Assembly: GCA_033980235.1 (NCBI GenBank)
Contig: CM067065.1
Span: 26,862,336 to 26,926,335, forward strand
Source of the DNA: Diadema setosum
Lineage: Eukaryota; Echinodermata; Echinoidea; Diadematoida; Diadematidae
DNA length: 64,000 nt
Direction of reading: 5' to 3'
The translations under genes were made by a program, and so were the position numbers. Below, one piece after another: positions 12,423 through 61,793 of this stretch. How positions within the stretch are numbered: position 1 is the first letter of the stretch; every line of letters begins with the position of its first letter. Under the pieces are notes generated by a model. The model saw nothing but the letters and a program-made list of their open reading frames with translations, did no database searches and was not told the origin of the DNA.

Positions 12423-12800
12423 CCGTTGGAGTGGACAGCTTGCTTGCCCGGCGAATAATAAACCCAAATAACTTCAACCAGACCGCCGACATCCGCTTGG
12501 TCGGAGGTGAGCTACCATGGGAGGGCCGCGTTGAGCTATTCTATGACGGGGAGTGGGGTACCGTCTGCGACAACCGATGGGATAAATCTGATGCACGAGT
12601 GGCCTGCAGAATGCTCGGTTACCTCGACGCTGTCGCCGCACGTTCAGGTGCATCCTTCGGGCAAGGCTTGGGCAATATCATCCTAGATGATGTTGAGTGC
12701 AATGGCGAGGAGTTAAACCTGATATTAGAATGTGCACATGACCCCATTTTACAACATGACTGCAACCACGACCAAGATGCCGGTGTGATATGCAAACCTT
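12423..12800 (+). CDS. SRCR domain exon 1 (group A type)
   Basis: A complete scavenger receptor cysteine-rich domain lies in one exon. The frame starts with an RLVGG motif followed by GRVE, then WGTVCDNRW and VACRMLGY, the standard first half of SRCR. Six cysteines are present (TVC, VAC, VEC, LEC, HDC, VIC), the group A number. The acceptor AG is at 12421-12422 and the donor GTAAGT at 12801. The exon is 378 nt and phase 1 on both sides, the rule for SRCR exons. The preceding exon, which should carry the signal peptide or another domain, was not identified. SRCR domains bind proteins or microbial polyanions. Confidence 0.93.
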
Positions 12801-12899
12801 GTAAGTTTTAACATTTGCTTTCCTTTCAGTAAGCTATACCTGGATGTTACAGAAAAAGCCCATTATCTCTCATTAATAGCTCGAAACTATACATGAATG

Positions 12900-13900
12900 C
12901 CACCTTTTCAATAGAGCTTTGCTGCAGTCCAAGGCACACGAATGCTTTATTAAAAATTCCTTATGGATTAGCCTGGGTACACTGCAAAAAGTCCGGTGTT
13001 AAATAGTGAGCACCGAGCTGGTGTTAAATTAACACCTCCGGGTGTCATTTCCAAATTTTAAACTGTTTTTTGAAGAGTTTCTTAGTAACTGTACTTCTTG
13101 TTGATTTTTTTATTTAAACAAGACGATCAAGAATTTTACATCAAAATACTAGATTTTTGAAAAAATATGAAAATAAATTTACACCAAAGTAACACCAGCT
13201 GGTGTGGTCTCTTATTGAAGCTGGACGGGTGTTAAACCATTGATATTAACACCAACAAATATCAAATCAACACCATGTGGTGTCATTTTTGAATTAACAC
13301 CAGTACAGTGTCAAAATAACACCAGGTACAGTGTCAAATTAACACCACGAAGTGCCAGGTGAACACTTTTCAACACCATCACAGTGCATTTTTAACACCT
13401 GTGGGTGTGGTCCTTTATTGAAGTTTGATCGGTGTTAGATTTAACACCCGTGGTGTTAAATCTAACACCGATGTTTTTACAGTGTACTGTTAATTAAAAT
13501 TCATGAAAAAAAGAGTAAAATGCATGCCCATGACAAAACAAAAAGTATATCAACCACATGTTTCCATGTTATTGCGTACACTACATTTCAGGATGAATAA
13601 AGACTTACTGTAACAGTGGAATTCCTCATGGATAAGTAACAAAACATTCAATCCCTAAGATGGACATTGTGTAGCTGTTAACCACACGATACACACCATT
13701 TGGCCCCTGTGCAAAATTACAGTTTTGTACAAAGGGTTGGATATTACCAAAACCTGAACCCAAACATAAAGATTGATATTGAAAATAGTAAAAATGATTT
13801 ATGATTTCATGTTCAAATCTCCAAATAAATTGTTCACTGTTCAGCTATTGCTCATTAAACTATCGGTGTTATATGATGTAGCTTTTTAAAGTATTAAAAA
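12900..13900. mobile_element. Relative of the mariner-like inverted-repeat element, interrupted
   Basis: 12905-12970 matches the inner left arm of the 57.5-kb element (GCACACGAATGCTT, TTATGGATTAGCCTGGG) and 13590-13890 matches its right arm (GTGGAATTCCTCAT, TTAACCACAC, CCCCTGTGCAAA, AAAGGGTTGG, TTCAGCTAT). The TIR element at 12978-13486 has inserted between them. The outer ends are eroded. Confidence 0.75.
12978..13486. mobile_element. MITE rich in GGTGTTAA/TTAACACC
   Basis: Ends are TACACTGCAAAAA and TTTTTACAGTGTA, an inverted pair, followed inward by inverted CGGTGTTA motifs. The interior is packed with inverted copies of GGTGTTAA and TTAACACC, so the single strand could fold extensively. 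No ORF is present. Confidence 0.85.
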
Positions 13901-14079
13901 ATGATTTATTTGTTTTGTAACATCTAGTACGATAATGACACTTTTGGCTGAATGAAAGTTTGACGCACACGCAACAATGAGGTATTTCACGGGGACATTC
14001 GGGTCATGTATAAACTTTATTGAAGAAATCAATGAATTGGCACATATGCCTACATTGCGTTCCTTAAAATTCAATTCAA

Positions 14080-14340
14080 TTCAAAGGTTTTATTTTCACT
14101 TCTTTCAACAGAATGTACAAAAAATATAGATTCGACATACGTTTGAAGGAAAGATACATAGATAGCAAAGGATAACATTTGTCAATAATCATTACAAATT
14201 TAGGCATTTTTCATACAGACATATTTATACATTCTGCCAAAAAAAAGTGGAGGTACCCACTCAAAAGACTATGCTTGTACAACGTGGGCACCTCACAGGA
14301 AGAAAAAAAAAGGTGAAAACTTAACTACAAGTGTGCGGGA
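14080..14340 (-). mobile_element. LINE 3'-end fragment
   Basis: Matches in layout the 3' region of other minus-strand LINEs in the window. It holds a stem-forming block GGAGGTACCCAC...GTGGGCACCTC at 14250-14297, like those near 880-921 and 30408-30453. No RT sequence is attached, consistent with severe 5' truncation. Confidence 0.6.
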
Positions 14341-14607
14341 TGAAAAAAAGAAGTGGAAAAGGGGAAAGGGAAGAAGCATACAATACAAGTAAAATGAAGA
14401 ATGCATGTTTCCCTAAACTGAACAAAACTTGCATAATTTATTTCCATGTTATACCATTTTTCCGATTGCAAACGATGATACAGGGAATCATTAAGGATAT
14501 ACTCTGCCATTCATGTCTTTGCTGTACAATACTCAAATTGGTTCTTTACCAGTGATTAACAGATGATGTTATTGACAGAGTCCTATTATGGATATTTTTT
14601 TCCTAGG

Positions 14608-14627
14608 GGAGGGGGGGGGGGGGGGCG
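14608..14627. repeat. Poly-G run
   Basis: A G-rich homopolymer of about 20 bases, prone to sequencing error. Confidence 0.85.
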
Positions 14628-15100
14628 CATCGAGGTTGACAGAAGAAATATAGCACCACAATTATGATATAATCTACCAGGCATATATTCACAAGAATCT
14701 ATAACGATACAGATGCTCATAGTATTACGAATACATACTCGGTAATCTGTATTTGGATTTATCTGTCCCGCCGTATATATGTATGTGTGTGTGTGTGTGT
14801 GTGTGTTTATTTTAACTTCCCTGAATGACGTAACAAGCTGCTTTAAATGGCATGAGAAAACCTTTCATTTTCCAAATTAAAGGGCAGTTTGTAGAGGAAT
14901 TCATACTCAATATCTGCAGCTATTATTATCATTATTGTGTGTGTTTGTTTGTTGTTGTTTTTTTGCCAAACTACATTTCTGAATCTTAATTATTGGTTTT
15001 TTTTTTTTCTTCATTTACTTTGGTAATTTGGGTTAAATTTTGTGAAGCGGTCAGGGACATTCCTTTTTAATTACAGGTGTGAGCCTTCAATCGCGGACTA

Positions 15101-15530: not shown

Positions 15531-15866
15531 GGGCTTCTGAAATTCCTGTACGTTTGGGCGGAGAGGAACGTTACACTCCTTGGGAAGGTCGCTTGGAGAT
15601 ACGGTACGGCAATATGTGGGGAGCCGTTTGCGACGATGGTTGGGATATGGTTGCTGCCGATGTGGCTTGTAGAGAGCTGGGATACGACGGAGCGGAATTT
15701 GCTTGGACCAGATCAAAATTCACCGACTTCTCAAACGCCATCCCTATCGTGCTGGACATTGTGAGCTGTGATGGAACAGAAAGCAGCATCCTAGACTGTG
15801 ACCACCTCCTCTCCTATGAACACAACTGCTCCGAGTTTGAATACGCAGGAGTATCATGTGTGCCAG
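15531..15866 (+). CDS. SRCR domain exon 2 (group A type)
   Basis: This is the second complete SRCR domain in a single phase 1-1 exon (336 nt). Visible landmarks are VRLGG, GRLEIRY, WGAVCDDGWD, DVACRELGY, SCDGTE and the closing GVSC. Six cysteines match group A spacing. The acceptor is ...CATTAG before 15531 and the donor is GTACTA at 15867. It is the most canonical of the three SRCR domains. The adjoining SRCR exons are in the same phase and can be joined or skipped without changing frame. Confidence 0.94.
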
Positions 15867-16932: not shown

Positions 16933-17346
16933 ACACCCGTCTTGTTGGTGGAACAAGTCCAGAAGCGGGCGTGGTTGAGATCTTCTACAACGGGTCATGG
17001 GGAAGCGTGTGCCTAAGGACTGACGATTCCACTGTGACTTTTCATGATCTTCACGCCACCGTATGTCATTCCATTTATTCCGACATTAATTACGCGAAAT
17101 ACGTACCCACGCCATTCAGCGATGACTTGTTGGACAATGGCAATGACTTCATTTCTTTCGGAATTGCCTGGCAACTTCCATACAGTGAGCTGTACGCGGA
17201 CAACTTCTTTCCCGTTAATTTCCGCTGCTACTCAATCGAGAATTCTTTGGCTGGTTGCTTGTATTTTGACCCTGAAGACTTCCATTTGGACGCAGCCAAT
17301 TGTATTGAGTCGAATACAATTTACGGTATCTTTTGCTTTTCTCAAG
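16933..17346 (+). CDS. Divergent SRCR domain exon 3
   Basis: The exon opens with TRLVGG and VVEIFYNGSWGSVC, clear SRCR strands, but the middle has drifted. The usual VACRxLGY is replaced by an HATVCHS segment, and a longer acidic and aromatic loop follows. Six cysteines remain (SVC, TVC, FRC, AGC, ANC, IFC). The exon is 414 nt, phase 1-1, with acceptor CCACAG at 16927-16932 and donor GTAAAT at 17347. Retention of all six cysteines despite loss of the core motif argues for a folded domain under changed selection rather than a pseudo-exon. Confidence 0.85.
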
Positions 17347-17476
17347 GTAAATTTAGTAGAATATAAGCTCACGATTTTTCACCTCTTTTCCTCAAAGAAT
17401 TGTTTACTCTGTTATACATAAACTACCGCCCGGTCACCCTTTGTGAATGTAGAATAAAGCTTTTTATCTCTGTGAA

Positions 17477-17489
<13 letters not shown>

Positions 17490-17513
<24 letters not shown>
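17490..17513. repeat. (TA)n microsatellite
   Basis: Dinucleotide run at the left border of the 3.1-kb TIR element. A matching (TA)n run at 20611-20641 lies at its right border. Confidence 0.9.
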
Positions 17514-20500
17514 GGGTGAAAACGTTATACGATGTACAATTGGGCAAATCAGGGGTCAAAATTAAAAAAAACGTCACTCACTGATATAAATATATCTCAG
17601 GCAAATGTCATTTATATCAGCTTTCTTGGAAACCCGATTATACTGGGATATCTCCAAGGGTGTTGTTTTTATTCAAGATTAGATAGAACTGTGACATATT
17701 GGAGAACGTCTCTGACTAAAATAAACATTGTTTTAGTGAAAATTCAAATGAAGGGTGAAAAAACATTCAAATGAATATATTTTCATCTTGTTCATGCTTT
17801 TCAAGACTGTGTTAATTTGTTCCTAAAATATTGTTTACCTCCTGTGAAGTTTACAAAAGCTAATACACACGGAAGTTGAAGTAAAAATGGAGTTTTTGTC
17901 ATTTAAGCAGAGATTTTTATATTCTTATCTTTACTTTCATCTCATTTGAACAAAACATATAGCAGGGGTCTCATTTGTTTAAATGTTAATGTTCACTAGA
18001 TACTAATAATGAATTTAGTGCATTTCGTTTGGTCAAATCCCCATAAAAGCCCTTTACAGATGCTGAAAGTAAGCCATGTTTTGATCAGAGACGTTCAGGT
18101 TTCACTCATAGACGTTCCTCAGACATAGACAATAAAAACGATGTCCTTTGATCCATAATTACGAGGTTTGTGAACAAACAACATTATTCTTTTATTAAAC
18201 ACATGTGTATCTTTTGTGAACAATTCAGAATGGTAATTTCAACTTAAATTATTTTTCATAATAACCGATTGTAACTACAAACCTCCAAATTGTAAGAGGA
18301 ATTTCGATTTCTACATCAAAGATCAACAACAAACCTTTCCTTGTTATATTATTCATATCTTACAACACTTTTGAATGACAGACAAATAAAAATTACATTA
18401 AATACTTGCAATTTTGACTACCTTACCTAAATTATTTGTTTATATCAGAGGCATTTGCTTTTCCATCAGGGACGTTTCGGCTGTAAGTTATCACTAGAAT
18501 TAAACACCAAACTCCCTATTTTAAAAGATGCTCGTAACTCAACATTCCACATTCATTGAGAAATCATTTACCGAGGCATATGTCAAAATTGTTTTTGTTT
18601 ATCATGACCACTACTTTGTATTTCACCTTCCGGTGTATGCGAAGGTGTGCCCACATGCTATCAATATTGTATATGATTTCTTCCAAATGTAGTCCAAATC
18701 TATAGCAAAGGTAAACACGAATTTACTAATACTATTTTAATTTGACCACTATACCTCAAATATGATTGTATGTGTATGTCAGGCCAGTTCGGATTTTTAT
18801 TAGGGACCGTACCTGGGCCACTGTTATGATGTCGTCTTAGAAAGCTGTAATTAACCTATAACTCATCCTAGAAGCATCAAATTCCGCTGTGATTTTTTGT
18901 ATACTATGGCAAATATAAATTGTAAACGCCAAACTCAAAAGAATATCAACGGTGTGGTACAGCAAACGTTTGACCAAAAATGAAATGAAAACCTCTTTCA
19001 AGAGGTTGACAATGATAACATTACAATATCACATTTTACCTGTCACATCGGTAGGGGATTATCAATCCTTCTTTCTACTCGAAGGCAATACATAAGTATA
19101 GTGTTGTAGAGGAAACTAAGTAAAGGTACATTCTTAATAGACATTTTCTTGTTTCATCATAGATGTTAGTATTTCTCCTTTTCTCATGTATTTGGCTTAC
19201 AAACCTCAAAAATAATACCACTAGAACATCTCACCTTACTTCTAAGAGAAAAGGAGTCATTACAGGGGAAATTCAGTCCAAATATCAGCTAGCCGCTGAT
19301 AAGAAAGAATAGAATCTTACGGGCTCAAGAAAAAAATAATAAAGTTATGACATTTTGAAGTTTCGCTAATTTTTCAGGAAACAGTTTTTGAACGGTCATT
19401 ATGAATATGCTAATGGCAAATTGAGCTTGTCATTCCCTCACAACTTGCCATAATGTTTGCACATAAACTTTTGAAATTTTCAGTTTTTCATTCAAACATA
19501 ATTATGCCCAAGGCCTCAATCCGGGTATATGTCACTGATTACTATTCTGAAGGTAATCAACCAGGAATAATATATATTTAATAAATAAATATATATACAT
19601 AATTTCACAAATGATACTGATTGGCAAATCTACGGAATAATAATTCTAATAAATCGGCACAAACACCAGGAAAGTTTTTGTTATTACTCACATTTTCAAG
19701 ATTTGTGGGCATATCTGTCGTTGAACTGTGCTGACTCGATTTCAGGATGGCTCGTCAGTGCGTAAAATAAGCACGCAAATAAAGTATCATGCAGTGCGAA
19801 AGTGTCAGATGAGGGAATATCCCTTCAGTGACTTTCAATCAGGGACATTCGTTTTGATCAGAGACATTCACCAATTCGGGTTTTCAACCAGAACTCACTT
19901 TTGTGGACAGAATGCTACTAAAGTTGCCAATCATCATAGTCGCCTGGCTCACACTGACATACTGATAACCACTTTTTATCTCAAGCATAATCCACTTTCA
20001 TTAATGACACCATTAAACAACTGAACATCTCTGATGGTTATTCAGTATAATTTTCTTTAATGAGCCACCACACGATTATTTCACACAGCTCACTCACAAA
20101 TTTTGATAGAATGGTGGTATGGATAAGACGCTAAATAAATATGGCCTTACATGTTTTCATAGTCATCCTGAATTTTTGGCGTCAATGAAAAGATAATTCA
20201 TTCAGAGACGTTCTTTTTCAGACATAAGTGAATTCAACGTTTCCTGATAAGATAAATAATACACACGTTCATGGCAGAAGTACTTGATTAAATAGTTGAA
20301 GTGTGTAGGCTTACTCACGAGGAAAAACAAAGCTGTAGAATTGCATTAGAACAAAAATTAAGACGTGTGATTCTGGGATTTTTTCCCAAAATATGCATTT
20401 TTGTCAATTTTTTTCAGCTTCAAGGCATTATTTTTTAAAGAAAATGCAGTAAGAACACTACAAAGTATATATTTTCTGAAAGGTGCAACCCTCCCCTACC

Positions 20501-20608
20501 AAATGATACCTAAAACCATGAAAAAATACCCCCAGGTGACAATTTTACAAGGGTTTGAATATCGAAAAGCTCGAAAATGGCTAATTGTACATCGTTCAAC
20601 GTTTTCAC

Positions 20609-20610
<2 letters not shown>
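17514..20610. mobile_element. 3.1-kb TIR element without visible transposase
   Basis: The ends are inverted repeats of about 30 bp: GGGTGAAAACGTTATACGAT at 17514 and its inverse (ATCGTTCAACGTTTTCACCC) ending at 20610. Each end abuts a (TA)n tract. The interior is AT-rich, has no frame longer than about 100 codons, and repeats variants of AGAGACGTTC (near 17705, 18089, 18105, 18470, 19846, 19863, 20207). It occupies the intron between SRCR 3 and the Cys-rich exon. It is non-autonomous or decayed. Confidence 0.85.
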
Positions 20611-20645
<35 letters not shown>

Positions 20646-20819
20646 AGAAGATCAGAGTTTCATATTCATAATTTGCCTTATGTTGGTGAGATCATACTGT
20701 GTACAATTAGTGAAAGTTATCAGACAGTGACAGAGAGAATGAGGGAGGAAAAGAATAGAGAATTCACGTGCTGTTATAAATTATGAAGGTGATTTAATGA
20801 AAATTGTTCATTATTTTAG

Positions 20820-20948
20820 ATCCCTGTGGAGATGGATTGTGTCCAGTAGATTCGTCCTGCGTGAGTTCGAGTCAGGGTCATTCGGGAGTGTCTCACTGCT
20901 TGTTCAACGACATCGAGCCACAAGAGGCAGCCTGTCGGGGTCTCCACG
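20820..20948 (+). CDS. Short cysteine-rich exon (EGF-like?)
   Basis: This is a 129-nt phase 1-1 exon after TTATTTTAG, ending at donor GTATCG. Its roughly 43 residues contain five cysteines (CGDGLC, DSSC, VSHC, EAAC) in an EGF-like rhythm, but no complete EGF consensus can be claimed. It sits between the SRCR block and the CUB-like exon, and its phases fit both neighbours. An alternative donor a few bases upstream would change only the last residues. The domain family is unassigned. Confidence 0.55.
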
Positions 20949-21559
20949 GTATCGAATTCATAAAGAAATGGACTGGGCCAAACCAGGGCCGACGGCAGTA
21001 AATTGGGGGAGGGGTAGCTTGAAAAGATATTGAAGTAAAATCATGCAGCCCACTTGCACAAAATGCACAATGAGGCTTTCCTTGAGTTGTAGCTGAAAGA
21101 TCCTTGATAATGCATAGATATAGGTATTGCGCTTGCATGATACTTTGAACCGTCTGTTTAAAACTAATTGTCCATTTTCTTCTACCTTTATGTTGAATAC
21201 ATTTTATGAAGGATTTTAAAGTTTGAACAAACAGGAAGAAATTACTGTCTGTATTTAATCGTATTTTGTTTTGCTTTGTTTTTTATCTTGTTTTTGATCG
21301 ATTACGTGTTATTTATTATTCTTCAGGAAGTAAAATCTACCATGATTTTAAAAAGGTTGTGGAATACAGAGCGGGAAAGCAACTGTTGCTGGTTTAATAG
21401 CTTCGGTTCACGATTAATCACACCTTTTACATCAGAAACATTCTATCAAAGAATGTGTTCAGAGTTTTATGGCATGAAAAGTGGGCTGTATAAGACACGC
21501 ATAATCACATTATTAAAAATGTATTCGAGAAAAAACTGCTAATCACACGATTTTCTGTT

Positions 21560-21725
21560 TGTTTTATGATCCCAAACTTCAGCATAATGTAGAAGAAGAG
21601 TCGCTCTTTCAAAAAGTATGAAAACTTGACATTGTCTATGTTATTCCATTTCACCTATTTTCCGTCCTCATGACACAAACTGCGTGCGACTGTTTGTTGG
21701 TCTTGTGAAGCACGGTCACACTTTT
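21560..21725. repeat. Dispersed intronic repeat, copy 1
   Basis: TTTTATGATCCCAAAC, a GATGTA.A..AGAAGAAG block, and CTGTTTGTTGGTCTTGT recur at 40262-40375 in the same order and spacing. The family is unknown. Confidence 0.6.
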
Positions 21726-21793
21726 TTTTTTCTCTCAAACACTTGTCATTCCTTTTTTGTGAAGTTTCATTCCTGTGAAACTAGTCGTTCATT

Positions 21794-21797
<4 letters not shown>

Positions 21798-21833
<36 letters not shown>
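21798..21833. repeat. (TA)n microsatellite
   Basis: Pure dinucleotide run in an intron. Confidence 0.9.
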
Positions 21834-21837
<4 letters not shown>

Positions 21838-22382
21838 CACATGATCGGGCCTTTAAAGCAACCAAAGCGTGTTTTCGGCGTTTGCTTACAAATGTCCTAT
21901 TATCATTGTCCGTTCGCGTTCGCGTGGAACCATTGTGGTCAACAAAGGGACTCGTTTTTTGATGTGTCTCCCAGAGACTAGACGGTAGAATGAACTGAGC
22001 TAGATATTTTTAAATATCTGCAGTTGGTTTGAATAACACACCGACGTTCTAATTAATTCTGCCATGATGTGGTATACCTTATTTGCTTTAAGTCAATTTT
22101 TGGACAGTTAAGCAGGCATCCGGGGCTAACCTGCAGCGGAAGCAACACGGCAGATGTCTACATTTTCATAATGTAGTTTCCACTTTAAGCCCTTCTTCTC
22201 AGATATTATACTTCGCTCGTTTAATTAAAACCCTCTTAGCTTTCGAACAAACACCGCCGTTTCGTAAAATGGCATGTATAGTTTATGAAATTATAAACTG
22301 TCTTCGTAATTTTACAATTATCTGCGGAATGCGCAAAAAGGTGGATGCAACAGCTGCCTGCTGAATGATTATTTCTGTGTTC

Positions 22383-22779
22383 CTTTAAAGGAATGGTACA
22401 GTATTGGTTGAGGTCAGGATTTGGCTTTTAACTTTTCACGAGATACCAGAAAACACTTATGAAATGGTACAGAGCATGCCATTCTAAGCGGTATTCAAAC
22501 CTTATTTGATAAAAATCGGTTTTGGAATAGCTGAGACATCTAAAAACAAAGTAAAACATAGCGATCGTAATAAAATATGGGTGCGACACTTTAATAGTAT
22601 TGCTCTGTTTTGGAAATCTAAGCCATTTCCTAACGAATTTTTGTGAAATAAATGTTTAATTCTACTTGCAATTACATGCTCTTTCATATTTCATAAGATA
22701 TTTCTCATTATCTCCCCCGCCCATAATGTGAAAAACCTGAGGTTAGGTCTCAACCAAAACTACACGAGAACTTTAAAGC
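22383..22779. mobile_element. TIR element of the 'TTTAAAGG..GGTACAG' family, copy 1
   Basis: The left end CTTTAAAGGAATGGTACAG then TTGGTTGAG is mirrored at the right by CTCAACCAA and CTTTAAAG. The interior contains TTTGATAAAAATCGGTTTT and GCGATCG, both also found in the copy at 54.1-54.47 kb. It is non-coding and ends about 115 bp before the CUB-like exon. Confidence 0.8.
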
Positions 22780-22893
22780 ATACCTTGTTGTTAGGCCATG
22801 TTGTTACTGTGTTGATCAAGCCTTATTAGATGTTTGCTTGTTTGCCTTTTAATATGCATGTTTATTCCTTTCATTTTTCGTTTGTTTTCTCAG

Positions 22894-23250
22894 TCAGAGA
22901 GGACAATAATGGTCGATCGTATGCTTCGGCGGACTACGTTCAGTCAAGAATGACAGGTACCCTACGACTTCCTAGATTTGATGTACCTCTGTTGCAGAAA
23001 TGCTCCTACCTTCTTCTTCTGCCTAGGGCCAGTCGCTTTGCCCTGCATTTTGAAGGCAATAGCACTATTCTCCTGGGTATTCGCATCAGCAGAGGATTCA
23101 CATATTCTTCAGCTCAACTACAAGAGTACGTCACCGTCCATGGATCCGCACACTCGACGATTTTAGTACATGATAGCAGCGTCTGGATGGATGTGGATTT
23201 CTTCCATCCGAAAATCGGTCCAGTGGACTTTGCAGTGCACTATGTAGCAG
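22894..23250 (+). CDS. CUB-like domain exon
   Basis: A phase 1-1 exon of 357 nt, with acceptor TTTTCTCAG and donor GTATGC. The translation has a lone cysteine followed by alternating hydrophobic strands (CSYLLLLP, FALHFEG), then EYVTVHG and a final VDFAVHYVAG, resembling the second half of a CUB sandwich. The canonical four-cysteine CUB pattern is absent, so this is a divergent CUB or another jelly-roll. The next recognised exon is only the tiny 27756 one. The donor lies 92 bases before a palindromic transposable element. Confidence 0.65.
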
Positions 23251-23341
23251 GTATGCAAAAGGGCAATGTTCATGAAGATATAGTGTGTGATGTGTTTCAA
23301 AGAAAAATGTACAATTACGCCCTCAGTCAACAAGAAATATA

Positions 23342-23590
23342 TGAAGAGTTTGTTCGCAAAAACCGATAAGTCCATTTTTAAAGATTTTGAAGTATGGTCT
23401 CCGTCATAAAGTACAAAATAATACCTTTTAAATGATATATCGGTCACTACATATAAATGTACATTTTTTAAGTTATGGTCAAAAGAAGCAAAAATATTCT
23501 TATTATTCTCTTTATTTTTCTTGACCTTTACTCGCAAATATCTCCATTTGGCAAATATGGACTTATCGGTTTTTGCAAACAAACTCTTCA
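23342..23590 (-). mobile_element. 249-bp TIR element (TGAAGAG family), copy 2
   Basis: Full-length copy flanked by TA. An in-frame open reading frame spans it on the minus strand and joins flanking sequence into a 142-codon frame, which is a by-product of the element. Confidence 0.93.
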
Positions 23591-24329
23591 TATACAGCTA
23601 AAAAGAAAATCATCGCGAAAGAGAAGATATGTTCGAAAGTACTTCTAGTGCAGTTCATTTGATTTTAATCTATATCAAATTAAACAGGATCTAGTTCACA
23701 ATGGATAGAAATCACACTTTGCCAGAGCTGCCACCCCAAGGAAAAACGCAGTATCTACATCCAGCTCCATTTCTAAACAACCGAGATATTCACCATTTTA
23801 TATTTTTGCCAAAGCCCCAGGTAAATATACTCTTTTGAAAAATTCCTTCATTGTGGAATTTTAGTCTATCTAGCTACCAATTTTCCTGGAAAATATCATT
23901 TTGTGTTTTTGTTTTGTTTTTCAGTTATTGATGAAAATGTAGATACTTTGGGGAAACCCCACGCAATTGACTGATTTCCCCAAGGAAAAACGCAGTATCT
24001 ACAATGGAACGAATTTCCCCAAGGAAAAACGCAGTATCTACAGCGGCATGACTAGGATTAATCTTCTGCCATAATTATGTATGCATGTATACATCATTGT
24101 TCAAGTATTCTCTGGCCCTGGGGGATGCATCCTCCATCCCCCCCCCCCCCATTTATGCCCTGATTACAGAGCAGGCTTCATAAGATTATTAAATAACAGA
24201 TCGTTCTTGGAACGTTTTGCTTAAAAGTGTATCCCAGACCGATCTTGCTGTAGGCCTAACGTTACGTCGATACGTGTTTAATATGAAGCTTGCCAGGGCT
24301 GTAATGTGATGCTACATGGCCTAGCCGCT

Positions 24330-49391: not shown

Positions 49392-49605
49392 CGTTGTTTA
49401 TGCACGTCAAACGACTCTGTGTTAAATTCACTTTGTATATTTCCTACACGTTCATGATTATGTAACTTATATATATCTTTGTTTATGCAAGTCAAAGCAC
49501 TCTGTGTTGAATTTACTTTGTATATTCCCTACATTTTCATGATTATGTCACTTTTGTACATTGATTTGCAGGAAATAAAGTACATGTATCTATAAAACAA
49601 ACAAA
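49392..49605 (+). repeat. Tandem ~83-bp duplication followed by a retroposon-like tail
   Basis: TGTTTATGCA(C/A)GTCAAA, CACTCTGTGTT, TTTGTATATT and TTCATGATTATGT occur twice in succession (49392-49473, 49474-49556). A GCAGGAAATAAAGTACATGTA tail follows, as at the 3' end of a plus-strand LINE. No RT is visible upstream. Confidence 0.7.
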
Positions 49606-49805
49606 ATAACGTGAAAAATGATTCAAGGCAGTCCACTTCACCTCGGTAAATTCCCGACAAACACTATCGTCTCCCGAGAAGTTGTCCTCTCAACTCCTAC
49701 GCTCGTGTGACCTAGACGCTGTGCCGCCATGACACCAAGCGCTTGAACGTTTCTAGCTATCCAAGTTGCGGCAGACCCGTAACATTCTATTAGAAGATAA
49801 CTGAA

Positions 49806-50560
49806 GACCTGAATATAAGAACGACCCAAGTCCAATTTGGGCCAAATTCAGTTTGACATGGGAAATTGTAGCTTATGCATGTGCCCATCTTGTGTATCTC
49901 CTAATTACCCCCGGAAGTGCTTGAAATGAATGAGTTAAATCTTATATTAATGTAAGAATGAAGGATTTGGGTCATTCTTACATTATAATTACAGCGCCCT
50001 CTATCATCCTTCTCTCATCTCTATAGCGGAATATCATGTATATGAATCAAAGAACGACCCAAGTCCATCACACAAAATGGCCTCTCCACAATTGATATAA
50101 ATGTTAATTGTCACAATATGTTCTAATTGGTATATACAATGTTGCCTTCCCATCACAGTTGAATAGAACATTATTGAACAAATAAAAAAGATATTCTCTA
50201 AAAAAAATCGAGTGAAAATTTTCACTCTAAAAAGAGTGAATACAAAAAAAGAGTGAATTTCGAGTGAAATTGGAGTGAATTTTGAGTGAAAATGCTCATT
50301 TTCACTCATTTTGGAGTGACGTCAGGGATCACTCGAAGATTTTGGAGTGATTCCTGACCTCACTCCAAAATGAGTGAAAATGAACATTTTCACTCAAAAT
50401 TCACTCCGATTTCACTCGAAATTCACTCTTTTTTTTTATTCATTCTTTTAACAGTGAATATTTTCACTCGATTTTTTTTTTTAGAGAGTATGATTTTTTT
50501 TTAAAGTTTACTCGAAATGGTCTTCCATGGACTTGGGTCGTTCTTATTTTCAAATACTCA
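49806..50560. mobile_element. TIR element, 'ACGACCCAAGTCC' family, copy 2 (interrupted)
   Basis: Inverted copy of the 6999-7509 element: GAATATAAGAACGACCCAAG at the left and GGACTTGGGTCGTTCTTAT at the right, with the internal sub-terminal GAACGACCCAAGTCC copy at about 50050. It is split by the GAGTGAA palindrome at 50194-50489. Confidence 0.88.
50194..50489. mobile_element. GAGTGAA-repeat palindromic MITE nested in copy 2
   Basis: Terminal inverted repeats start TCTCTAAAAAAAATCGAGTG, each next to TAT, a possible 3-bp target duplication. Almost the entire 290 bp consists of GAGTGAA and TTCACTC units arranged as one palindrome around a CATTTTGGAGTGA core. Comparison with copy 1 of the host element shows an empty site. 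Confidence 0.88.
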
Positions 50561-50887
50561 TTACTTTACCGACTACCATTAACCAAGCATGGGAGCCACC
50601 ACATTTAGTCATCGTTTCCTTGGGCAGGTCATCCTCAGTGAACACAGTGCTCGGATACGAGCTTTGCAGGAGCCAACAAATGTATGGGCAGGAATGTGTG
50701 CATATCAACACGTATTTAGTATTTTGTAGTTATGCTTTCTTTTGAAATATGTATAATTTATGGATCTGTATGTTTGGTTTTGAGTACATCGGATGTAGAG
50801 CTATGTTTGTGGGAGCTATCATATTTCCACATTCGTCCACCATCAGTGATGTTTGCATCTAGATAATTCGTCTTCTTGTATTGTCAG

Positions 50888-51017
50888 ATTGTTGACGGAC
50901 TTTGGTGGACAGGTGCCTTCAACGAATCTTTCAGAGATTGTCAAGCACATGACGTAAGCACAGGCGTGGAATCATGGTTCTCTTGCAACGAGCACTTCAA
51001 CTTTGCGTGCATTGTAG
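50888..51017 (+). CDS. C-type lectin-like domain 2, exon b
   Basis: Closing half of CTLD2 (130 nt, phase 0 to 1, acceptor TATTGTCAG, donor GTCAGT). WWTGAFNESFRDCQA and SWFSCNEHFNFACIVG supply the last three cysteines with normal CTLD spacing. The domain is short and again lacks EPN/QPD and WND, so calcium-dependent sugar binding is not supported. Confidence 0.85.
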
Positions 51018-51517: not shown

Positions 51518-51671
51518 ATTTTGGCTTCTTGCAGATAGATCAGGATGAGGATTTATCGACAACGAAACATATGTCGACTTCATTTGGATATATAGGGCTT
51601 TCAACCCATACAATTGCTGCTAATTATGAGCACAACATAATCATTCATGTCGATCACAAATTCAGTTTGAG
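51518..51671 (+). CDS. CUB domain 2, exon a
   Basis: First half of a CUB domain (154 nt, phase 1 to 2; acceptor TTTTTCCAG, donor GTAAAG). The strands GYIGLSTH, YEHNIIIHVDHKFSLR resemble ...W.I.ap.g..I.l.f. of CUB, although the N-terminal cysteine pair is absent. It is completed by the exon at 53857, with a palindromic element and a dispersed repeat in the intron. Confidence 0.78.
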
Positions 51672-51892
51672 GTAAAGTTATATGACTTTATGGTTAAAAC
51701 CTTCTTCAAATAGTTACATTTCCCTTGCTTACTCCTACATAATAAGTTTATTAGATTGGCTACGGTAATGTGTCCTAATTTGTTCATTTCGTCTAGTTAT
51801 TAGTTTGGCTATGGCCATTTGAATTATGTCCGACCGGTCTATCAACATTTGATGTAGTGTATTATCGTCCTTTAACCTGTTTGTGTAATATT

Positions 51893-52145
51893 TGAAGAGT
51901 TTTGTTCGCAAAAACCGATAAGTCCATTTTTGAAGATTTTGAAGTACGGTCTCTGTCATAAAGTACAAAATAATATCTTTTGAATGATACATTGGTCACA
52001 TATACATATAAAGGTACATTTTTGAAGTTATGGTCAAAAGAAGCAAAAATTTTCTTATTATTATCTTTATATTTCTTGACCTTTAGTCGCAAATATCTCC
52101 ATTTGGCAAATATGGTCTTATCAGTTTTTGCGAACAAACTCTTCA
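51893..52145 (-). mobile_element. 249-bp TIR element (TGAAGAG family), copy 7
   Basis: 253 bp, TIRs intact, T-rich flanks instead of TA. The minus-strand frame is open. It lies in the intron of CUB 2. Confidence 0.92.
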
Positions 52146-52544
52146 TTTGAGTTGTGTATTTATCATTTCTTCTAATTCGTACTTAAGCTGTACCTTGTAA
52201 GGTTAACCACGTGTCCACTAAGGCATTGTATTGATTTTATCGATCTTTAGGTCACCATAATTTCGGCACCCTGCACCACAAAACAACAAATGCCAGACAT
52301 GGATTTTTAGTTTCAGGACAGATTCTAAAAGAGTAGACTTTAAGCATTGAACTGATGCATAACCCAATATCAAGGGCACTCTCCTGCCGCATCTGAAATA
52401 TTTACAAGAAAACAAAATAACAATACTGTTGAATCGTGTATGTGCTATTGTTGTTTTTGTTTGGTTTGTTTGTTTCTTATTGTTTGTATGTATGTGTGTG
52501 TGTGTATGTGTGTGTTTCTAGTAAAGAGTATCTCAAGTATATAG

Positions 52545-52760
52545 GGCGCTATCCAAGTACTTAATCTTACCAGGACGTGCTAGAGGTGCAATGAAAGGGA
52601 CAAAAAAGGTGTAAAATTTCGCAGTATAAACAATGAAGGGATTATCAAATTAAGCTGAATGTTAACCCATTCTTCTGATGATTGATACTAACTTTCACAG
52701 CACTAGCATCACCCTTTCTAAACGTTATTATAGCTGAATGTTTAGAGGGTGTAAAGGATT
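52545..52760. repeat. Dispersed intronic repeat, second family, copy 2
   Basis: Partner of 43913-44130, see there. A plus-strand 64-codon frame (52682-52876) overlaps it but has no recognised domain. Confidence 0.65.
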
Positions 52761-52949
52761 TGGAAAAAAATGAAAAGGGGACTCAACCTATCCCACTATT
52801 CTACAAAGAAACTACTCTAGAAAAGGATCAAAACGTTACCATTGTGTTGCTAAAGTTTTACACTTTCAGAAAATAAATTATGAAAAACCTAGGATTGACT
52901 AAGTAGACCCATCTCGCCTATTTTGAGTCCTTACACAAAATTAGTGTCC

Positions 52950-53856
52950 GCCTTCCGATTTTTTTTTTTTTTTTTGGTGACGCACGGTCACATTAAGCTT
53001 ATAGTTTGTTTGGCTACATATCAATTTAATTAGTCTATTGACTAGTTTTTTAATGACCACTTAGTACAAAATATCAGTCTTCATACCATTTGTCCCTCAT
53101 GTTCATTTAGTCCACTGTCCACAACAATGTATACATACAAATATAATGGATGGACACTAGGCGGATGTCGGAAAATAATTGAGAGAGCGCGGTTGCGCTT
53201 TGCAATATGCGTCATTCCCTAGATTCATTCGGTGTGCAAGAGAATTTATCAACAAAGCATATCGCAAAAAATACAAATTAAGCAGACAACAATTTCTTTA
53301 GTGATGATTCGTGTCATGCTCGGGCATAACGTAGGATTATGATATAGAATGGACTTTCCAGTTTGAACAGAAACGAGCTGTAGACCTGCTGCTTAGCGAG
53401 GGTCTGCGCTTTCCGGGAATTTTCTAGCACTGTACGTCTCCGTTTCTTGTTAGTCGAGGGTCAGCATACTGTTCATTTCTACCGAACGGTGTCTGGTAAC
53501 CTTTTTTTTTTTTTTTTGATATTTTCCCACTGAGGTTATTCCAAATTACACTGTTTTTTTTCTCAACCGTCTTCTGATGTCTGGGCCTATTAGTTAAAAG
53601 ACATGCGTTCCCGTGATCCAGGGATCATCTTTCCTTTTGATCATAATGTTTTCTATGAAGACAAAGCGTTTTTTTTTTTTTTTTTTTTTTTAGTTAGTTT
53701 TAAATGACGTCAAGTATTTTCGAACAATGCGCTTAATGAGCGGATGATTCAATTCTCAGCAGTAATTATATCATTCAAAATATTTGTTCACAAATAACAG
53801 CAATTTGAACATTATTTATTCAGAGATTTTTGTCGTTCAATGCTTCATCTCGACAG
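52950..53856. other. Intron remainder without recognised content
   Basis: Contains three long T-runs (52960-52975, 53502-53517, 53670-53691). No repeat family or coding motif was recognised. Confidence 0.5.
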
Positions 53857-54077
53857 GTTAGTGTTCACCTTGGTGTCCATGCGGAAGAGTGTGCAGGCTA
53901 ACGAAGACTGTGTTGACTACGTCCGAGTCGTAGACAAGCTCACCTCAGCTAAGGCACATGATATCTGTGGCATATTTGATCAAATTGAATTTTTCGTCTC
54001 GCATAACATCGTCATTCAAGTCTACGCAGTGGACATTGTTCAACACACTCGATTCCAGTTGCTCTATCAGGCTGTTG
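53857..54077 (+). CDS. CUB domain 2, exon b
   Basis: Second half of the CUB domain (221 nt, phase 2 to 1; acceptor CTCGACAG, donor GTAATA). LVFTLVSM, then ANEDCVDYVRVVD, HDICG and VIQVYAVD...RFQLLYQAVG match CxDyvevxdG...lCG......i.f.sd.....GF...y. The Cys pair of the second CUB disulphide is present. Confidence 0.9.
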
Positions 54078-54862: not shown

Positions 54863-55035
54863 ACTGCAATATCACAGAATGTTTTACCGGCTGCGGCGAA
54901 ACACGTCTTCTTGAAAGCAACGGGACTATTGAGACCAGTCCGTACCCATCTCGGTTCATCCCATTTAGCTCGTGTTCGCTTGACGTCACTGTACCGCTCG
55001 ACCACTTCGTTCTGGTAGATTTAGAGGAATATTCG
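54863..55035 (+). CDS. CUB domain 3, exon a
   Basis: First half of a CUB domain (173 nt, phase 1 to 0; acceptor GCTCTACAG, donor GTTAGT). NGTIETSPYPSRF is the classic CUB GxIxSPxYPxxY motif, preceded by a Cys-rich CNITECFTGCGETR start and followed by the Cys and LDVTVPLDHFVLVDLEEYS strands. There is no initiating ATG in this frame, so a start-based ORF scan misses it. Confidence 0.92.
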
Positions 55036-55482
55036 GTTAGTTAAATATGATCTGACATATTTTGTTTCTAATATAATCATTTCGATTTTGTACCAAACTA
55101 ACGGGCATGGATACGTATATATTTCCTACGATTTGATGGATTTAGGCACATAAGTCTCATATCGGATGTTAATATCCAGTCTTAAATGTGGCATCGCAGG
55201 TGTGTTCAGTGACACAAAAGGCTCACCTCGGATTACGATGAGCTGACGTCTTCGTTTTGTAAAAGCATACAAACAGATAATAAACAAATAAAGAAACAAA
55301 AACTTCACTAATTAAACAAGCTAAGTGAGCGTGATAATTTCTTGTTTACGGTATTGTCCAAACAAATTTGTTTTGACTCAATAAAATAGCAGTGAAATTT
55401 CAAAAACAGTGTACATAACTGTAAACTGTCATGTCTACGTAAACGTAAACTGCTAATTTCAACCAATGTAAAGTAAATTGAA

Positions 55483-55501
55483 TAACCTCTCTCTCTCCCT
55501 C

Positions 55502-55532
<31 letters not shown>
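55483..55532. repeat. (CT)n microsatellite
   Basis: Interrupted then pure CT dinucleotides. Confidence 0.92.
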
Positions 55533-55537
<5 letters not shown>

Positions 55538-55548
55538 GTGTGTATATA

Positions 55549-55790
55549 TGAAGAGTGTGTTCGCTAAAACCGATAAGTCCATATTTTCCAAATGGAGATA
55601 TTTGCGATTAAAGGTTAAGAAAAATAAAGAGAATAATAAGAAAAATTTTGCTTCTTTTGACCATAACTTCAAAAATGTACCTTTAAATGTAGTGACCAAT
55701 ATCTCATTTAAAAGGTATTATTTTGTACTTTATAACAGACCCTACTTCAAAATCTTCAAAAATGGACTTATCGGTTTTTGCGAACAAACT

Positions 55791-55795
<5 letters not shown>
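55549..55795 (+). mobile_element. 249-bp TIR element (TGAAGAG family), copy 8
   Basis: TA flanks, a (TA)n tract at 55796-55830 on the right, and the last bases of the right TIR decayed (CTCTTTA). The plus-strand frame is open for most of its length. Confidence 0.92.
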
Positions 55796-55838
<43 letters not shown>

Positions 55839-56397
55839 GTCTACCATAGTCGTTAAAGAATTGAGGCACAAACATATATCCAATGACATCACGTATCCAT
55901 GAAATGATTATATCTAACACAGTCTTATGAATAGCTCCTTCATTCCATGGATAAGAAAAGGTCGTGGAATTAGGTCGTAAGAAAAGAAAAGTGGTTTGAC
56001 TGAATTTGGTTATGGATATAATAGTCCCCGCGAACGCCAGGGATAAAGACTTGCAGAAATCTTGTCATAATGGTTGCTGCAAATAGCTGAAATTCTGTTT
56101 AAAAAGGTCCAGATTCGAAATATATATGACATAATTCATGTTATTTAGAAACCCCCTCTGTTGTTTTATGTATACGCACAATGTATTGTCACCTTATCTT
56201 CAAGTCAATGATTTAAAAAAAAAAATCCAACGAATGGTATCAATATGAAATACTTTGCGTTTCAATACGTATGTTTCTATTGCCTATTTTTAGAGAAGCC
56301 AATACACTAGCCGATAACTTGTTCCGACTTATCTAGTGATTCACTCAAATGACGGATTGAAAATAAGAACTATAGATTTTGATTGTAACAGTTGCTG

Positions 56398-56400
<3 letters not shown>

Positions 56401-56449
<49 letters not shown>

Positions 56450-56450
56450 C
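56401..56450. repeat. (TTA)n microsatellite
   Basis: About 16 TTA units just upstream of the CUB 3 exon b acceptor. Confidence 0.95.
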
Positions 56451-56482
56451 ATCATCATTATCATTATTATTACTATTCACAG

Positions 56483-56669
56483 ATGCTCTCTGGAGATGAT
56501 GGCTCTTGCCAGGATAAAGTATCTCTTACGTTTGGCGACAGTGTCACGGAATTGACGTGCAACGAGATGACACGGCAGATTCTTCTTAACTCTACCAAAG
56601 TAACTGTAGCTGTAACTACAGGCAGAGAGTCCAAGTCCGAGGGTTTCCGTGCACGCATTATCCCCTCTG
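56483..56669 (+). CDS. CUB domain 3, exon b
   Basis: Second half of the third CUB domain (187 nt, phase 0 to 1). The acceptor CAG directly follows a (TTA)n microsatellite that occupies the polypyrimidine position, and the donor is GTAGGT. GSCQDKVSLTFGD, LTCNEM and VAVTTGRES..GFRARI correspond to C.D.v.v..g....lC.......v.f.t......GF.a.y. Confidence 0.88.
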
Positions 56670-59011: not shown

Positions 59012-59425
59012 CTGTTGCAGGATGTGCATTCAACACGGATCTCCACAGCCATGATCATGTCTGCACACTGTCCTCAGGCATTATCGCGTCCCGATACTAT
59101 CCCAACTTTGCACCGGCAGGGTCTCGTGAAACGTGGAAGCTGGTTGCGCCACTAACGTCATATATTCGGATTAGGTTCCTTGAAATAGATTTCACAACGT
59201 CAGAAGACTCTTGTGGGACACAGTTGACTGTTAATAGATTTGGCCAATCCGACCAGACCATTGCTGTTTTCGACTGTGCAGGCGCAAATACTTCAGACAC
59301 TACAGTTCAAAGCGACGTCAACTTAGTGAAAATTAGTCTTCAAGTTGATATCACGCAGGCAAGCCTAAGCAGGTTCCGGGCAGAATACACTTTTATCGAC
59401 ATTGCGGGAACGAGTGTCGTAAATG
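59012..59425 (+). CDS. CUB domain 4, whole domain in one exon
   Basis: A full CUB domain in a single 414-nt phase 1-1 exon (acceptor CTCCCACAG, donor GTGATT), unlike the split CUB domains before it. A Cys-containing start (GCAFNTD, HVCTLSSG) leads to GIIASRYYPNFAP (CUB GxIxSPxYPxxY), ETWKLVAP, IRIRFLEIDF, a central Cys pair region and RFRAEYTFID at the end. The intron difference suggests separate origin or intron loss compared with CUB 2 and 3. Confidence 0.92.
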
Positions 59426-60024: not shown

Positions 60025-60110
60025 GATGCCTCCGCCACGAATTGTCTCCGCAGGCATTATATTATTTCCTAATTGTCCTTCAGTCCGTCCGTCCATCCGT
60101 CCGTAATCAC
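60025..60110. repeat. Dispersed repeat with CCTCCGCCACG and (CCGT)n
   Basis: GATGCCTCCGCCACG, GGCATTATATTATT and a (CCGT)n stretch at about 60084-60103. It looks like a fragment of a dispersed family; the ends are not defined. Confidence 0.4.
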
Positions 60111-60743
60111 TTTTGTGGACAGAGTAACCTACATAACTCTTAATAGTTATCTTGATGACATTTAGCGTAATGGTATACAGTACGTACGGGTGAACGAAGT
60201 CGTGCCTATCGACGTTAGGGTGCACATACTCAGTGTCAAAGGTCATTGAAATTGCAAACATTTTACTTTTTCCTCCAAATTTCTGAGATGGCTTATGGAG
60301 ACTTCATGAAAGAAAATACAAGTGAATGTACATTCCTGCCAGTGATATTTTTAGATTCGTCGTGATTTTTTTTTTTCCGGAGGTCATAAGGTCAAAGTTC
60401 AAAGACGAAAGTTCATGTTAAATGCTAAAGCTCTACTCTATAATGTTGAAATGTACACTTTTTCTGCATACATTGGAGATTATTCAAACAAGGAGTATTC
60501 AAAGGTCAAGTAAGAAAAAAATCTTACTATTTGTTCCATATTTTGAAATAGCTCAAACTATTTTCCTGAGAATTTGATGTTACCAGTTAGTGACAATTAA
60601 TATTGATGATTTCATAACACTTGGTCAAAGGGCAAGAGTTTGATGTCAACTTGCAATTTACTGAGTGGACATCGAAGCCAATTGAACCTTTATAGGAAAG
60701 GGAATACGTGATACATTTGTGACAAATATGTCATTTCATCTCC

Positions 60744-60792
60744 TGTGTGTGTGTGTGTGTGTGTGTGTGTTGTTTTTTTTTTTTTTTTTTAA
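60744..60792. repeat. (GT)n plus T-run
   Basis: About 13 GT units followed by about 18 T. Confidence 0.93.
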
Positions 60793-60913
60793 GGATTAGG
60801 GGGCAATGTGATACTGTCATTTCACATTGTCGAGACGTGCCGTAGCAAAGCTCGTGGTACGGCAAGATTATTTGGTTATTTTTATTTCCCTTTTTATCAC
60901 GGGGGACATGTAG

Positions 60914-61141
60914 GAATCACCTCCAGCCGCCCATGTCCTTCAGGATGGGATGTCTACGGGGTAAACTGCTACAATTTCACATCCGTATATGAAAAATCCT
61001 GGAACGACGTTGAGAATCTCTGTGGATCACAAATACATGCCGGTTCCCACTTGGTCAGTATTCTTGACCAGGAAGAGGCAGACTTCATACATCGGATGCT
61101 CCTGTCGCAGTGGTCCGAGTTTGGAATGGCGATGTACATTG
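60914..61141 (+). CDS. C-type lectin domain 3, exon a
   Basis: Start of a canonical CTLD (228 nt, phase 1-1; acceptor ACATGTAG, donor GTAGGT). RPCPSGWDVYGVNCYNF is the long-form CTLD opening, followed by SWNDVENLCGS, HLVSILDQEEADFI and a MYIG ending (yWIGL position). It is the most typical lectin domain of the three. The acceptor has a G-rich stretch close to it, so the exact border is slightly uncertain. Confidence 0.92.
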
Positions 61142-61708
61142 GTAGGTGCCACGAAGGGTGTAGATAATGATGTCCTTTTTTTTTCTTTTCTTCTCAAACA
61201 AATTACCTTTAACCCGTTCATACGGGAACCCGGTGACCGTGTTAGGTCCAAATTTGAAGTAGACAAAAAAAAAATTGCATTTTCCATTATGTCATCAAAA
61301 AGGAGGACGATGATAGATACATGTATGACTGATACATGAATAAATAAACTGACAGATAGCTATAGGGGATCCAGCAAAAGACCCACACAATTTATTAGAT
61401 AATCGTTGTATTTTAAATCCTAGTTGAGAGATAAAGGAGAGATATGCATGCAAGCTTGACGTTGTGCATATGGTTTCACTCTGTGACAAGTAATTATATA
61501 CAATGTACGAACGATTAAGAAAGAGAAATAGTAATGGCAGGTAAATTTCATGAAGATTATGTTTCCAATGATATTACCAACTGATAACTGTTCAATTAGA
61601 TCCAATCCAAGCAGCGGAAGCTGGCAACTTTGACCATGTAGCAGGAGGCGAGCCAGCTGGCTTTATTGACAGATGGATTGTTTACCAAATATGAATCTCT
61701 GTTAATAG

Positions 61709-61793
61709 GTCTGGGCTTCCGCACCGATGCAAGTGTGTTTCATTGGACTGATGGCTCCCCAGTGGCGTACACCGATTGGTTCATTCAAAACTG
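61709..61793 (+). CDS. C-type lectin domain 3, exon b (domain continues)
   Basis: 85-nt exon, phase 1 to 2, acceptor GTTAATAG, donor GTAAAG. FHWTDGSPVAYTDW is the conserved CTLD W.DGs.v.y.nW loop. The remaining exon with the WND region and final cysteines was not found in the last 2.2 kb, which is filled by (TA)n and a Tc1-like relic. It probably lies beyond the window, unless the domain is broken. Confidence 0.88.

Follow-up and report, generated by a model that had tools for sequence, protein, structure and literature searches.

A GRL101-like receptor of the echinoid Diadema setosum with a probable SRCR-headed mosaic ectodomain

The type C2 LGRs are the homologs of GRL101, an orphan receptor (PMC11863921). 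Both Lymnaea GRL101 and its ambulacrarian orthologs combine multiple LDLa modules, leucine-rich repeats (LRRs) and a rhodopsin-type seven-transmembrane (7TM) domain (PMC8286064, PMC11863921). Ambulacrarian GRL101 is depicted as consisting of LDLa, LRR and 7TM parts encoded by one gene per species, and the accessible text of the corresponding report contains none of the words "lectin", "SRCR" and "scavenger" (PMC8286064). Here we describe a 64,000-nucleotide stretch of the Diadema setosum genome (contig CM067065.1, positions 26,862,336 to 26,926,335; hereafter the window), which carries the 5′ part of a gene that very probably encodes a GRL101-like (type C2-like LGR) G-protein-coupled receptor (GPCR). 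Whereas type C2 LGRs are described as having LDLa and LRR parts only, the likely order of modules in this receptor is three SRCR domains, a CUB-like module, three F5/8 type C (F5/8C) domains, a C-type lectin-like domain (CTLD), an EGF domain, a second CTLD, three CUB domains, a third CTLD, seven LDLa modules, a short LRR block, a rhodopsin-type 7TM domain and a tail. A receptor type reported as single per species is multiplied in this genome, and the copy in the window adds up to fourteen further modules.

Some of these modules are known from related receptors. For instance, the GRL101-like receptors of the SudRes2 region of Biomphalaria sudanica combine C-type lectin, LDLa, LRR and GPCR parts, and their copies are clustered in a region tied to parasite resistance, but SRCR, F5/8C and CUB domains go unmentioned in the accessible part of that report (PMC12297450). 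SRCR domains are present on the LDLa-LRR-7TM receptors of the crinoids Anneissia (P0016) and Antedon (P0018). In contrast to the window receptor, these proteins have no F5/8C, lectin or CUB among their listed domains; they sit elsewhere in the 7TM tree, in a separate clade, and on the available sequences the crinoid gain of SRCR looks independent. Amphioxus features adhesion GPCRs with an N-terminal SRCR domain, and also with lectin, CUB or LDLa domains (PMC2246102). The starfish proteins P0192 (Patiria) and P0200 (Acanthaster), in which SRCR is combined with a GPS and a class B 7TM domain, are likewise SRCR-headed adhesion receptors, a case distinct from the present one. Both the amphioxus and the starfish receptors carry 7tm_2 and GPS domains, whereas the window receptor carries 7tm_1, with no GPS reported. 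In the accessible text of the literature searched, no SRCR-F5/8C-lectin-CUB receptor of the GRL101 class is described. The SRCR-less form is already found in sequence databases as uncharacterized proteins. The kind of receptor is known, and its probable SRCR-headed form appears to be new.

Candidate exons were listed from splice-site and codon scores, and were then chained by domain logic and phase. The genome comprises 885.7 Mb in 96 contigs, the contig of the window measuring 42.8 Mb, and neighbouring sequence was taken in beyond the window (80 kb after its end and 30 kb before its start). Pfam analysis of the read-through frames (12.0–21.7 and 33.2–62.1 kb) revealed two SRCR domains and a fragment of a third, a F5/8C fragment, one EGF, one CUB and a partial C-type lectin domain; the remaining domains are split across small exons. 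The initial annotation had assigned to positions 12,423–61,793 an in-frame chain of 28 exons. The accepted model retains 25 exons within the window, and these chain in frame, as had been claimed, without a stop, with compatible phases and with AG/GT borders. The gene does not end at 61,793, a limit that reflects the edge of the window. Candidate exons located just beyond 64,000 complete the third lectin domain and encode LDLa repeats followed by a 7TM domain of the rhodopsin type, and the chain continues to about 87,364.

In window coordinates, and on the same plus strand, the added parts are seven LDLa stretches (64,936–71,348), a LRR block (71,723–75,360) made of a cap exon recognized by eye and four small LRR exons (72–126 bp, phase 2), the 7TM domain (77,455–78,198 and 83,048–83,298), and a tail (86,377–86,642 and 87,188–87,364) in which the chain reaches its stop at 87,364. 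The full model comprises 42 exons, all bordered by AG/GT except that the last ends in the stop; all phases fit, internal stops are absent, and the encoded protein is 2,704 residues long. This length is obtained with the donor at 41,133, which replaced that at 41,088 following comparison with a Lytechinus pictus protein. Spacer exons that dynamic programming had first placed in the chain, 45,079–45,209 among them, were dropped, as domain-to-domain joins stay in phase without them. A Pfam scan of ten joined pieces, spanning the first version of the model, identified SRCR, F5_F8_type_C (54 bits), EGF_CA (32 bits), CUB (48 bits), Lectin_C (50 bits), LDLa (125 bits, seven stretches), LRR_8 (33 bits) and 7tm_1 (107 bits) domains. 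The window truncates the gene: its exon series corresponds to the outer two thirds of the receptor, and the signalling part lies beyond. From SRCR1 to the LRR cap, the domain-opening acceptors are invariably in phase 1 (22/22; that of SRCR1 lacks an identified partner exon), whereas introns inside domains are in phase 0, 1 or 2. These phases support the assembly of one large mosaic ectodomain by phase-1 exon shuffling, in line with what the initial annotation had proposed.

The LRR-7TM part was used as a query in a protein search, which yielded 179 proteins at E ≤ 0.001. The best match is LOC129265611 of L. pictus (P0001), an uncharacterized protein of 2,237 residues, which is 70% identical over the entire 341-residue stretch. 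All of the exons located between 33,794 and 87,364 align with this protein one by one and in order (38/38), and a single BLASTP match extends over 15–2203 / 1–2220 (44% identity, 1,814 bits). Alignment is weakest for CTLD2 and for the exon that opens F5/8C-2. Exons had been chosen before the L. pictus protein was seen; the protein was later used once, in deciding between two donors of one exon. Such collinearity indicates that the sequence from F5/8C-1 through the tail belongs to one gene. The two receptors share the order of parts from the first F5/8C domain to the tail, and their 7TM domains are 74% identical. The L. pictus model differs in that it begins at an internal methionine of the first F5/8C domain and features no SRCR or CUB-like part. 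The models of the long relatives P0001, P0019, P0020, P0009 and P0012 all begin inside a domain, and no signal peptide was visible by eye in them. Because several database models start in this way, the true N-terminal heads of this receptor family may be missing from annotation. The cytoplasmic tail (86,377–87,364) is conserved in L. pictus, where 34/89 and 20/58 residues are identical. No Pfam family matched the tail, apart from a match at chance level for the L. pictus copy, and a kinase-like reading was discarded, as Pfam found no kinase in the L. pictus and Holothuria tails.

In the initial annotation, the architecture could not be matched to a named family, and looked like that of a large recognition or adhesion molecule. 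Neither the lack of a matching family nor the adhesion reading is supported, as the chain continues into LDLa, LRR and rhodopsin-type 7TM parts, and its best match is an annotated protein with the same part order from the first F5/8C domain onwards. Comparison of the 7TM part to PDB structures ranked relaxin receptor 1 as the best of 471 matches (187 bits; LHCGR, 135 bits). The CWxP and NPxxY motifs are kept, and the DRY motif reads DRF. As in GRL101-like receptors and type C2 LGRs, a rhodopsin-family 7TM domain related to those of relaxin and glycoprotein-hormone receptors is associated with several LDLa modules, and LRRs are located between the LDLa modules and the 7TM domain. Type C1 LGRs (RXFP1/2, LGR3, LGR4) have one LDLa module, or one or two in starfish (PMC11863921), against the seven found here. 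Adhesion GPCRs have a GPS/GAIN domain and a class B 7TM domain; from the LDLa modules to the tail, Pfam detected neither GPS nor 7tm_2 at E ≤ 0.5. A tree was built from 47 of 121 available 7TM sequences, picked to span taxa and architectures, with no row from Lymnaea or vertebrates. In this tree, the window receptor and P0001 are paired at 100/100 inside an echinoid group. Of the rows called GRL101 or GRL101-like, some are found beside the window receptor (P0002, P0003), and others in a clade with relaxin-receptor-like rows (P0025, P0030, P0042, P0054).

Searching the genome with the 7TM query revealed 20 places at E ≤ 1e-50, the window gene included, among 100 matches listed; the more distant of these may be other LGRs. 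The three closest loci, in which the 7TM domain is at least 82% identical, are found on contig C25 (minus strand), at C13:18.1M (minus strand; C13 minus) and at C13:17.45M (plus strand; C13 plus). The two C13 paralogs (17.45–17.60 Mb, plus, and 17.76–18.11 Mb, minus) face each other as an inverted duplication, and the third near copy lies on a small contig, C25 being 0.83 Mb long. Two additional 7TM paralogs (66–70% identity) map at C1:37.57–37.64 Mb; a same-strand SRCR exon (54% identity) is located between them, upstream of the second.

Upstream of the part that is collinear with the L. pictus protein, the window contains three SRCR exons, each encoding one domain with phase 1-1 borders on the plus strand. 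SRCR1 (12,423–12,800; Pfam SRCR, 106 bits) has paralogs in three other loci. SRCR2 (15,531–15,866) reaches 110 bits jointly with SRCR3. The latter (16,933–17,346) is divergent, matches SRCR1 at 96.8% in hhalign, and has paralogs at the C13 minus and C13 plus loci (E 8e-35 in C13 plus). The following exon (22,894–23,250, plus strand, phase 1-1) is CUB-like, and is 64% identical to a paralog exon in the C13 plus locus (E 8e-45), which identifies it, by sequence conservation, as a real exon. Ratios of nonsynonymous to synonymous substitutions (dN/dS) were 0.42, 0.19 and 0.51 for SRCR1, SRCR2 and SRCR3, respectively, in comparisons with the C13 minus paralog. With the C13 plus paralog, the values were 0.29, 0.23 and 0.30, and 0.40 for the CUB-like exon. 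Rows L015, L016 and L019 (saturated, from loci in the other orientation) and the comparison of L017 with SRCR2 (not its counterpart) were left out. The SRCR/CUB-like block is genuine, and its ratios denote purifying selection. Two other conserved stretches of the region were rejected as exons. A cysteine-rich open frame (20,820–20,997) matching a C13 paralog was taken as a repeat, as a better match was obtained in another frame, and a conserved patch downstream of the CUB-like exon (25,403–25,557) is a palindromic, mobile-element-like repeat also present at the C25 and C13 loci.

The CUB identity of the 22,894–23,250 exon is unproven by its own sequence. Pfam gave no significant CUB match, profile-profile comparison with everything tried gave 0.1% or less, and its alignments with six relatives, over their N-terminal parts, had z-scores from -0.6 to 2.6. 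A single-sequence AlphaFold model featured eight strands and a pLDDT of 53, too poor for use; its top match was a bacterial lysozyme inhibitor, and CUB domains were found among many weak beta-sandwich matches. A CUB-like module would be an expected neighbour upstream of F5/8C-1, because the sister receptors P0009 and P0012 have apparent CUB repeats, judged by eye, preceding their F5/8C domain; the first 130 residues of P0012 match Pfam CUB with 28 bits.

Whether the SRCR/CUB-like block and the receptor are one gene hinges solely on the 10.5-kb stretch from 23,250 to 33,794, since downstream of 33,794 the possibility of two or more genes, raised in the initial annotation, no longer applies. We consider it probable, on genomic sequence and synteny, that the block is spliced to the receptor. 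In the three closest loci (3/3), paralogs of SRCR1 and SRCR2 are located upstream of the 7TM exons, on the same strand. The 7TM identities in C25, C13 minus and C13 plus (90, 84 and 82%) and those of SRCR2 (79, 74 and 64%) rank alike. At C13 plus, SRCR3 and then the CUB-like exon are found within the 10 kb after SRCR2, so that the SRCR1-2-3-CUB-like block is collinear. At the DNA level, the CUB-like exon resembles its C13 plus paralog over 22,874–23,253, up to 3 bases past the donor, which is kept in the paralog (score 12.9, compared to 9.2 here), and this indicates onward splicing in phase 1. F5/8C-1a, the next supported exon on the strand, accepts the same phase. No gene other than a long interspersed nuclear element (LINE) was seen in exon-candidate lists, examined by eye, for the 42 kb that precede SRCR1. 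Terminal-exon candidates at 17.3–33.8 kb stay at background level, with the exception of the one that scores best in the region, in which the CUB-like exon is read through to a stop at 23,369; the density of such candidates is 4.8/kb at 17,347–33,790, compared to 3.97/kb in five introns of the proven part.

Several observations weigh against a single SRCR-headed receptor gene. SRCR1 identities (64, 57 and 61% in C25, C13 minus and C13 plus) rank differently from those of the 7TM domain. In the paralogs, SRCR1 is separated from the 7TM domain by about 150, 347 and 478 kb, distances that are long for one gene, compared to 65 kb here. At C13 minus, about 72 kb following SRCR3 yielded no counterpart of the CUB-like exon and no F5/8C, and at C13 plus the 5.8 kb downstream of the CUB-like exon contain no F5/8C exon. 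Only poor candidates for a signal-peptide exon, and no convincing one, were found at 2.0–12.4 or 17.35–33.8 kb. SRCR matches occur in only two, both crinoid, of the best 120 of 179 GRL101-like proteins, and the CUB-like exon in none. P0001 has no SRCR, its model being truncated at the front, inside F5/8C-1. Low scores are found at some of the splice sites (donors 39,945, 54,077 and 64,344; acceptors 60,914 and 68,778). F5/8C-2 and F5/8C-3 have no Pfam match here, nor do their L. pictus counterparts match F5/8C, and the L. pictus counterpart of CTLD2 has no Pfam lectin match. Alternatively, two adjacent genes, one for a secreted or anchored SRCR x3-CUB-like protein (12.4–23.3 kb) and one for a GRL101-like receptor starting near F5/8C, might have been duplicated together. 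The L. pictus protein devoid of SRCR, the large and variable SRCR-to-7TM distances, the missing F5/8C exons in the examined stretches of two paralogs and the possible read-through to 23,369 all speak for this arrangement, under which the block would resemble a DMBT1-type protein, with SRCR repeats but no 7TM domain. The best 120 of 710 proteins found with the SRCR region are mostly of the DMBT1 type, two of them being SRCR-bearing adhesion receptors and none having 7tm_1 among its listed domains. The search with the segment from the CUB-like exon through CTLD3 returned one Nematostella protein featuring F5/8C and lectin domains (32% over 11%). We nonetheless regard two genes as unlikely: the donor of the CUB-like exon is kept in the paralog, with similarity ending just beyond it, no terminal exon other than the read-through stands out, and F5/8C-1a takes the matching phase. 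Conserved onward splicing, together with synteny, also disfavours a DMBT1-type identity of the block. That the whole gene is a decayed receptor copy is very improbable. It is one among several near paralogs, and a few splice scores are low, for instance those of donor 39,945 (1.8) and acceptor 60,914 (2.9), but 42 exons run without a stop or frame break, the dN/dS values of the SRCR and CUB-like exons range from 0.19 to 0.51, and the CWxP and NPxxY motifs are intact.

In a single SRCR-headed receptor, the distal modules would capture a ligand, the LDLa-LRR-hinge region may pass the binding event to the 7TM domain, as in relaxin receptors, and the 7TM domain would then activate a G protein. In relaxin receptors, the LDLa module and the linker between LRRs and 7TM act as a relay or as a tethered agonist. 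Modules of the kinds found in the ectodomain bind glycans, microbial surfaces and matrix. The kinds of modules, the QPD...WHD motif of CTLD3 and the multiplication of the receptor in the genome favour recognition of surfaces, glycans or microbes as the most likely use, ahead of that of a dedicated insulin/IGF/relaxin-type hormone receptor, although we would give recognition no better than an even chance. More specifically, and only tentatively, the protein could be a pattern-recognition GPCR, in which the classic recognition modules SRCR, F5/8C, CUB and a sugar-binding lectin domain sit on a rhodopsin-type receptor signalling directly via G proteins, a member of an expanded and shuffled echinoid set that acquired its SRCR head separately from the SRCR-headed receptors of crinoids. 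If the SRCR head is real, an antibody-less animal would have scavenger- and lectin-type recognition wired directly into a fast G-protein switch. A hormonal role is conceivable but rather doubtful. GRL101 has been proposed to bind IGF (Veenstra, PMC8286064), and the window gene might encode a second receptor for IGF/relaxin-type peptides, with its additional modules serving as parts of a co-receptor or scaffold. RXFP1 provides the closest solved structure to the 7TM domain, and the LDLa and LRR architecture is common to both. In contrast, only about four LRR exons follow the cap, and the 20 genomic 7TM places point to many diversified copies rather than to one conserved hormone receptor. The region encoding the lectin-bearing GRL101-like receptors of Biomphalaria is linked to schistosome resistance (PMC12297450), and expression of a starfish GRL101 has been reported in sensory organs (PMC6267866). 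These data fit external recognition, without proving it.

Most of the modules listed in the initial annotation are supported by Pfam or hhalign; CUB1 and CTLD2 are weak, and the 22,894–23,250 exon is a putative CUB module. All modules described below are on the plus strand, and identities refer to P0001. F5/8C-1 (33,794–35,606) is encoded by three exons, 33,794–33,972, 34,870–35,025 and 35,465–35,606 (24/46, 26/52 and 25/47 identical residues), and accounts for the Pfam match of the joined exons. F5/8C-2 (36,621–39,095) consists of exons 36,621–36,736, 37,222–37,344 and 38,951–39,095 (5/37, 20/41 and 15/47), and F5/8C-3 (39,799–42,383) of exons 39,799–39,945, which has a weak donor, 40,928–41,133 and 42,251–42,383. 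Both domains match F5/8C-1 in hhalign (90%, E 2e-7).

CTLD1 (43,260–46,339) is split in two exons, 43,260–43,473 and 46,182–46,339, by a phase 2 junction (24/71 and 18/52). As the CTLD1 profile may contain CTLD3 members, support was taken from the L. pictus CTLD1 segment, which barely passes Lectin_C (22.7 bits; cut-off, 22.6). A calcium-binding type EGF domain (47,374–47,496, phase 1-1) separates it from CTLD2 (47,792–51,017; exons 47,792–47,964 and 50,888–51,017, with 14/53 and 11/42 identical residues). The latter was assigned from its position and, by eye, its cysteines; hhalign against CTLD3 gave only 0.1%, and a starfish counterpart matches lectin with 17.5 bits, under the cut-off. CUB1 (51,518–54,077; exons 51,518–51,671 and 53,857–54,077, with 14/49 and 27/74) matches CUB3 in hhalign (35%, E 7e-5); its L. 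pictus counterpart matches a CUB family with 15.7 bits only, under the cut-off of that family. In the joined piece containing CTLD2 and CUB1, Pfam found only a weak Lin-15B match. CUB2 (54,863–56,669; exons 54,863–55,035 and 56,483–56,669) and the single-exon CUB3 (59,012–59,425) are the two stretches included in the Pfam CUB match.

CTLD3 comprises two exons in the window (60,914–61,141 and 61,709–61,793; 60,914–61,793 overall) and a third past its edge (64,166–64,344), and the Lectin_C match was obtained with the three exons joined. Its motifs occur in the order Q-P-D, then E, then W-H-D. In C-type lectins, such a motif is the sugar and calcium site, with WND as the canonical form. In a 34-row alignment of CTLD3, QPDG is found in 19 rows, QPNG in 4 and WHD in at least 17.

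A LINE-type retrotransposon occupies 1357–5422 on the minus strand; its endonuclease domain and its reverse transcriptase (128 bits) are read in different frames. At 130,192–132,587 in window coordinates, the plus strand carries another LINE-like open frame, about 800 residues long and, by eye, endonuclease and reverse-transcriptase-like. Elsewhere in the genome, C13:11,238,000–11,340,000 is occupied by a very large tandem array in which near-identical SRCR exons recur, many of them about 740 bp apart; this array accounts for most of the 150 scored SRCR matches.

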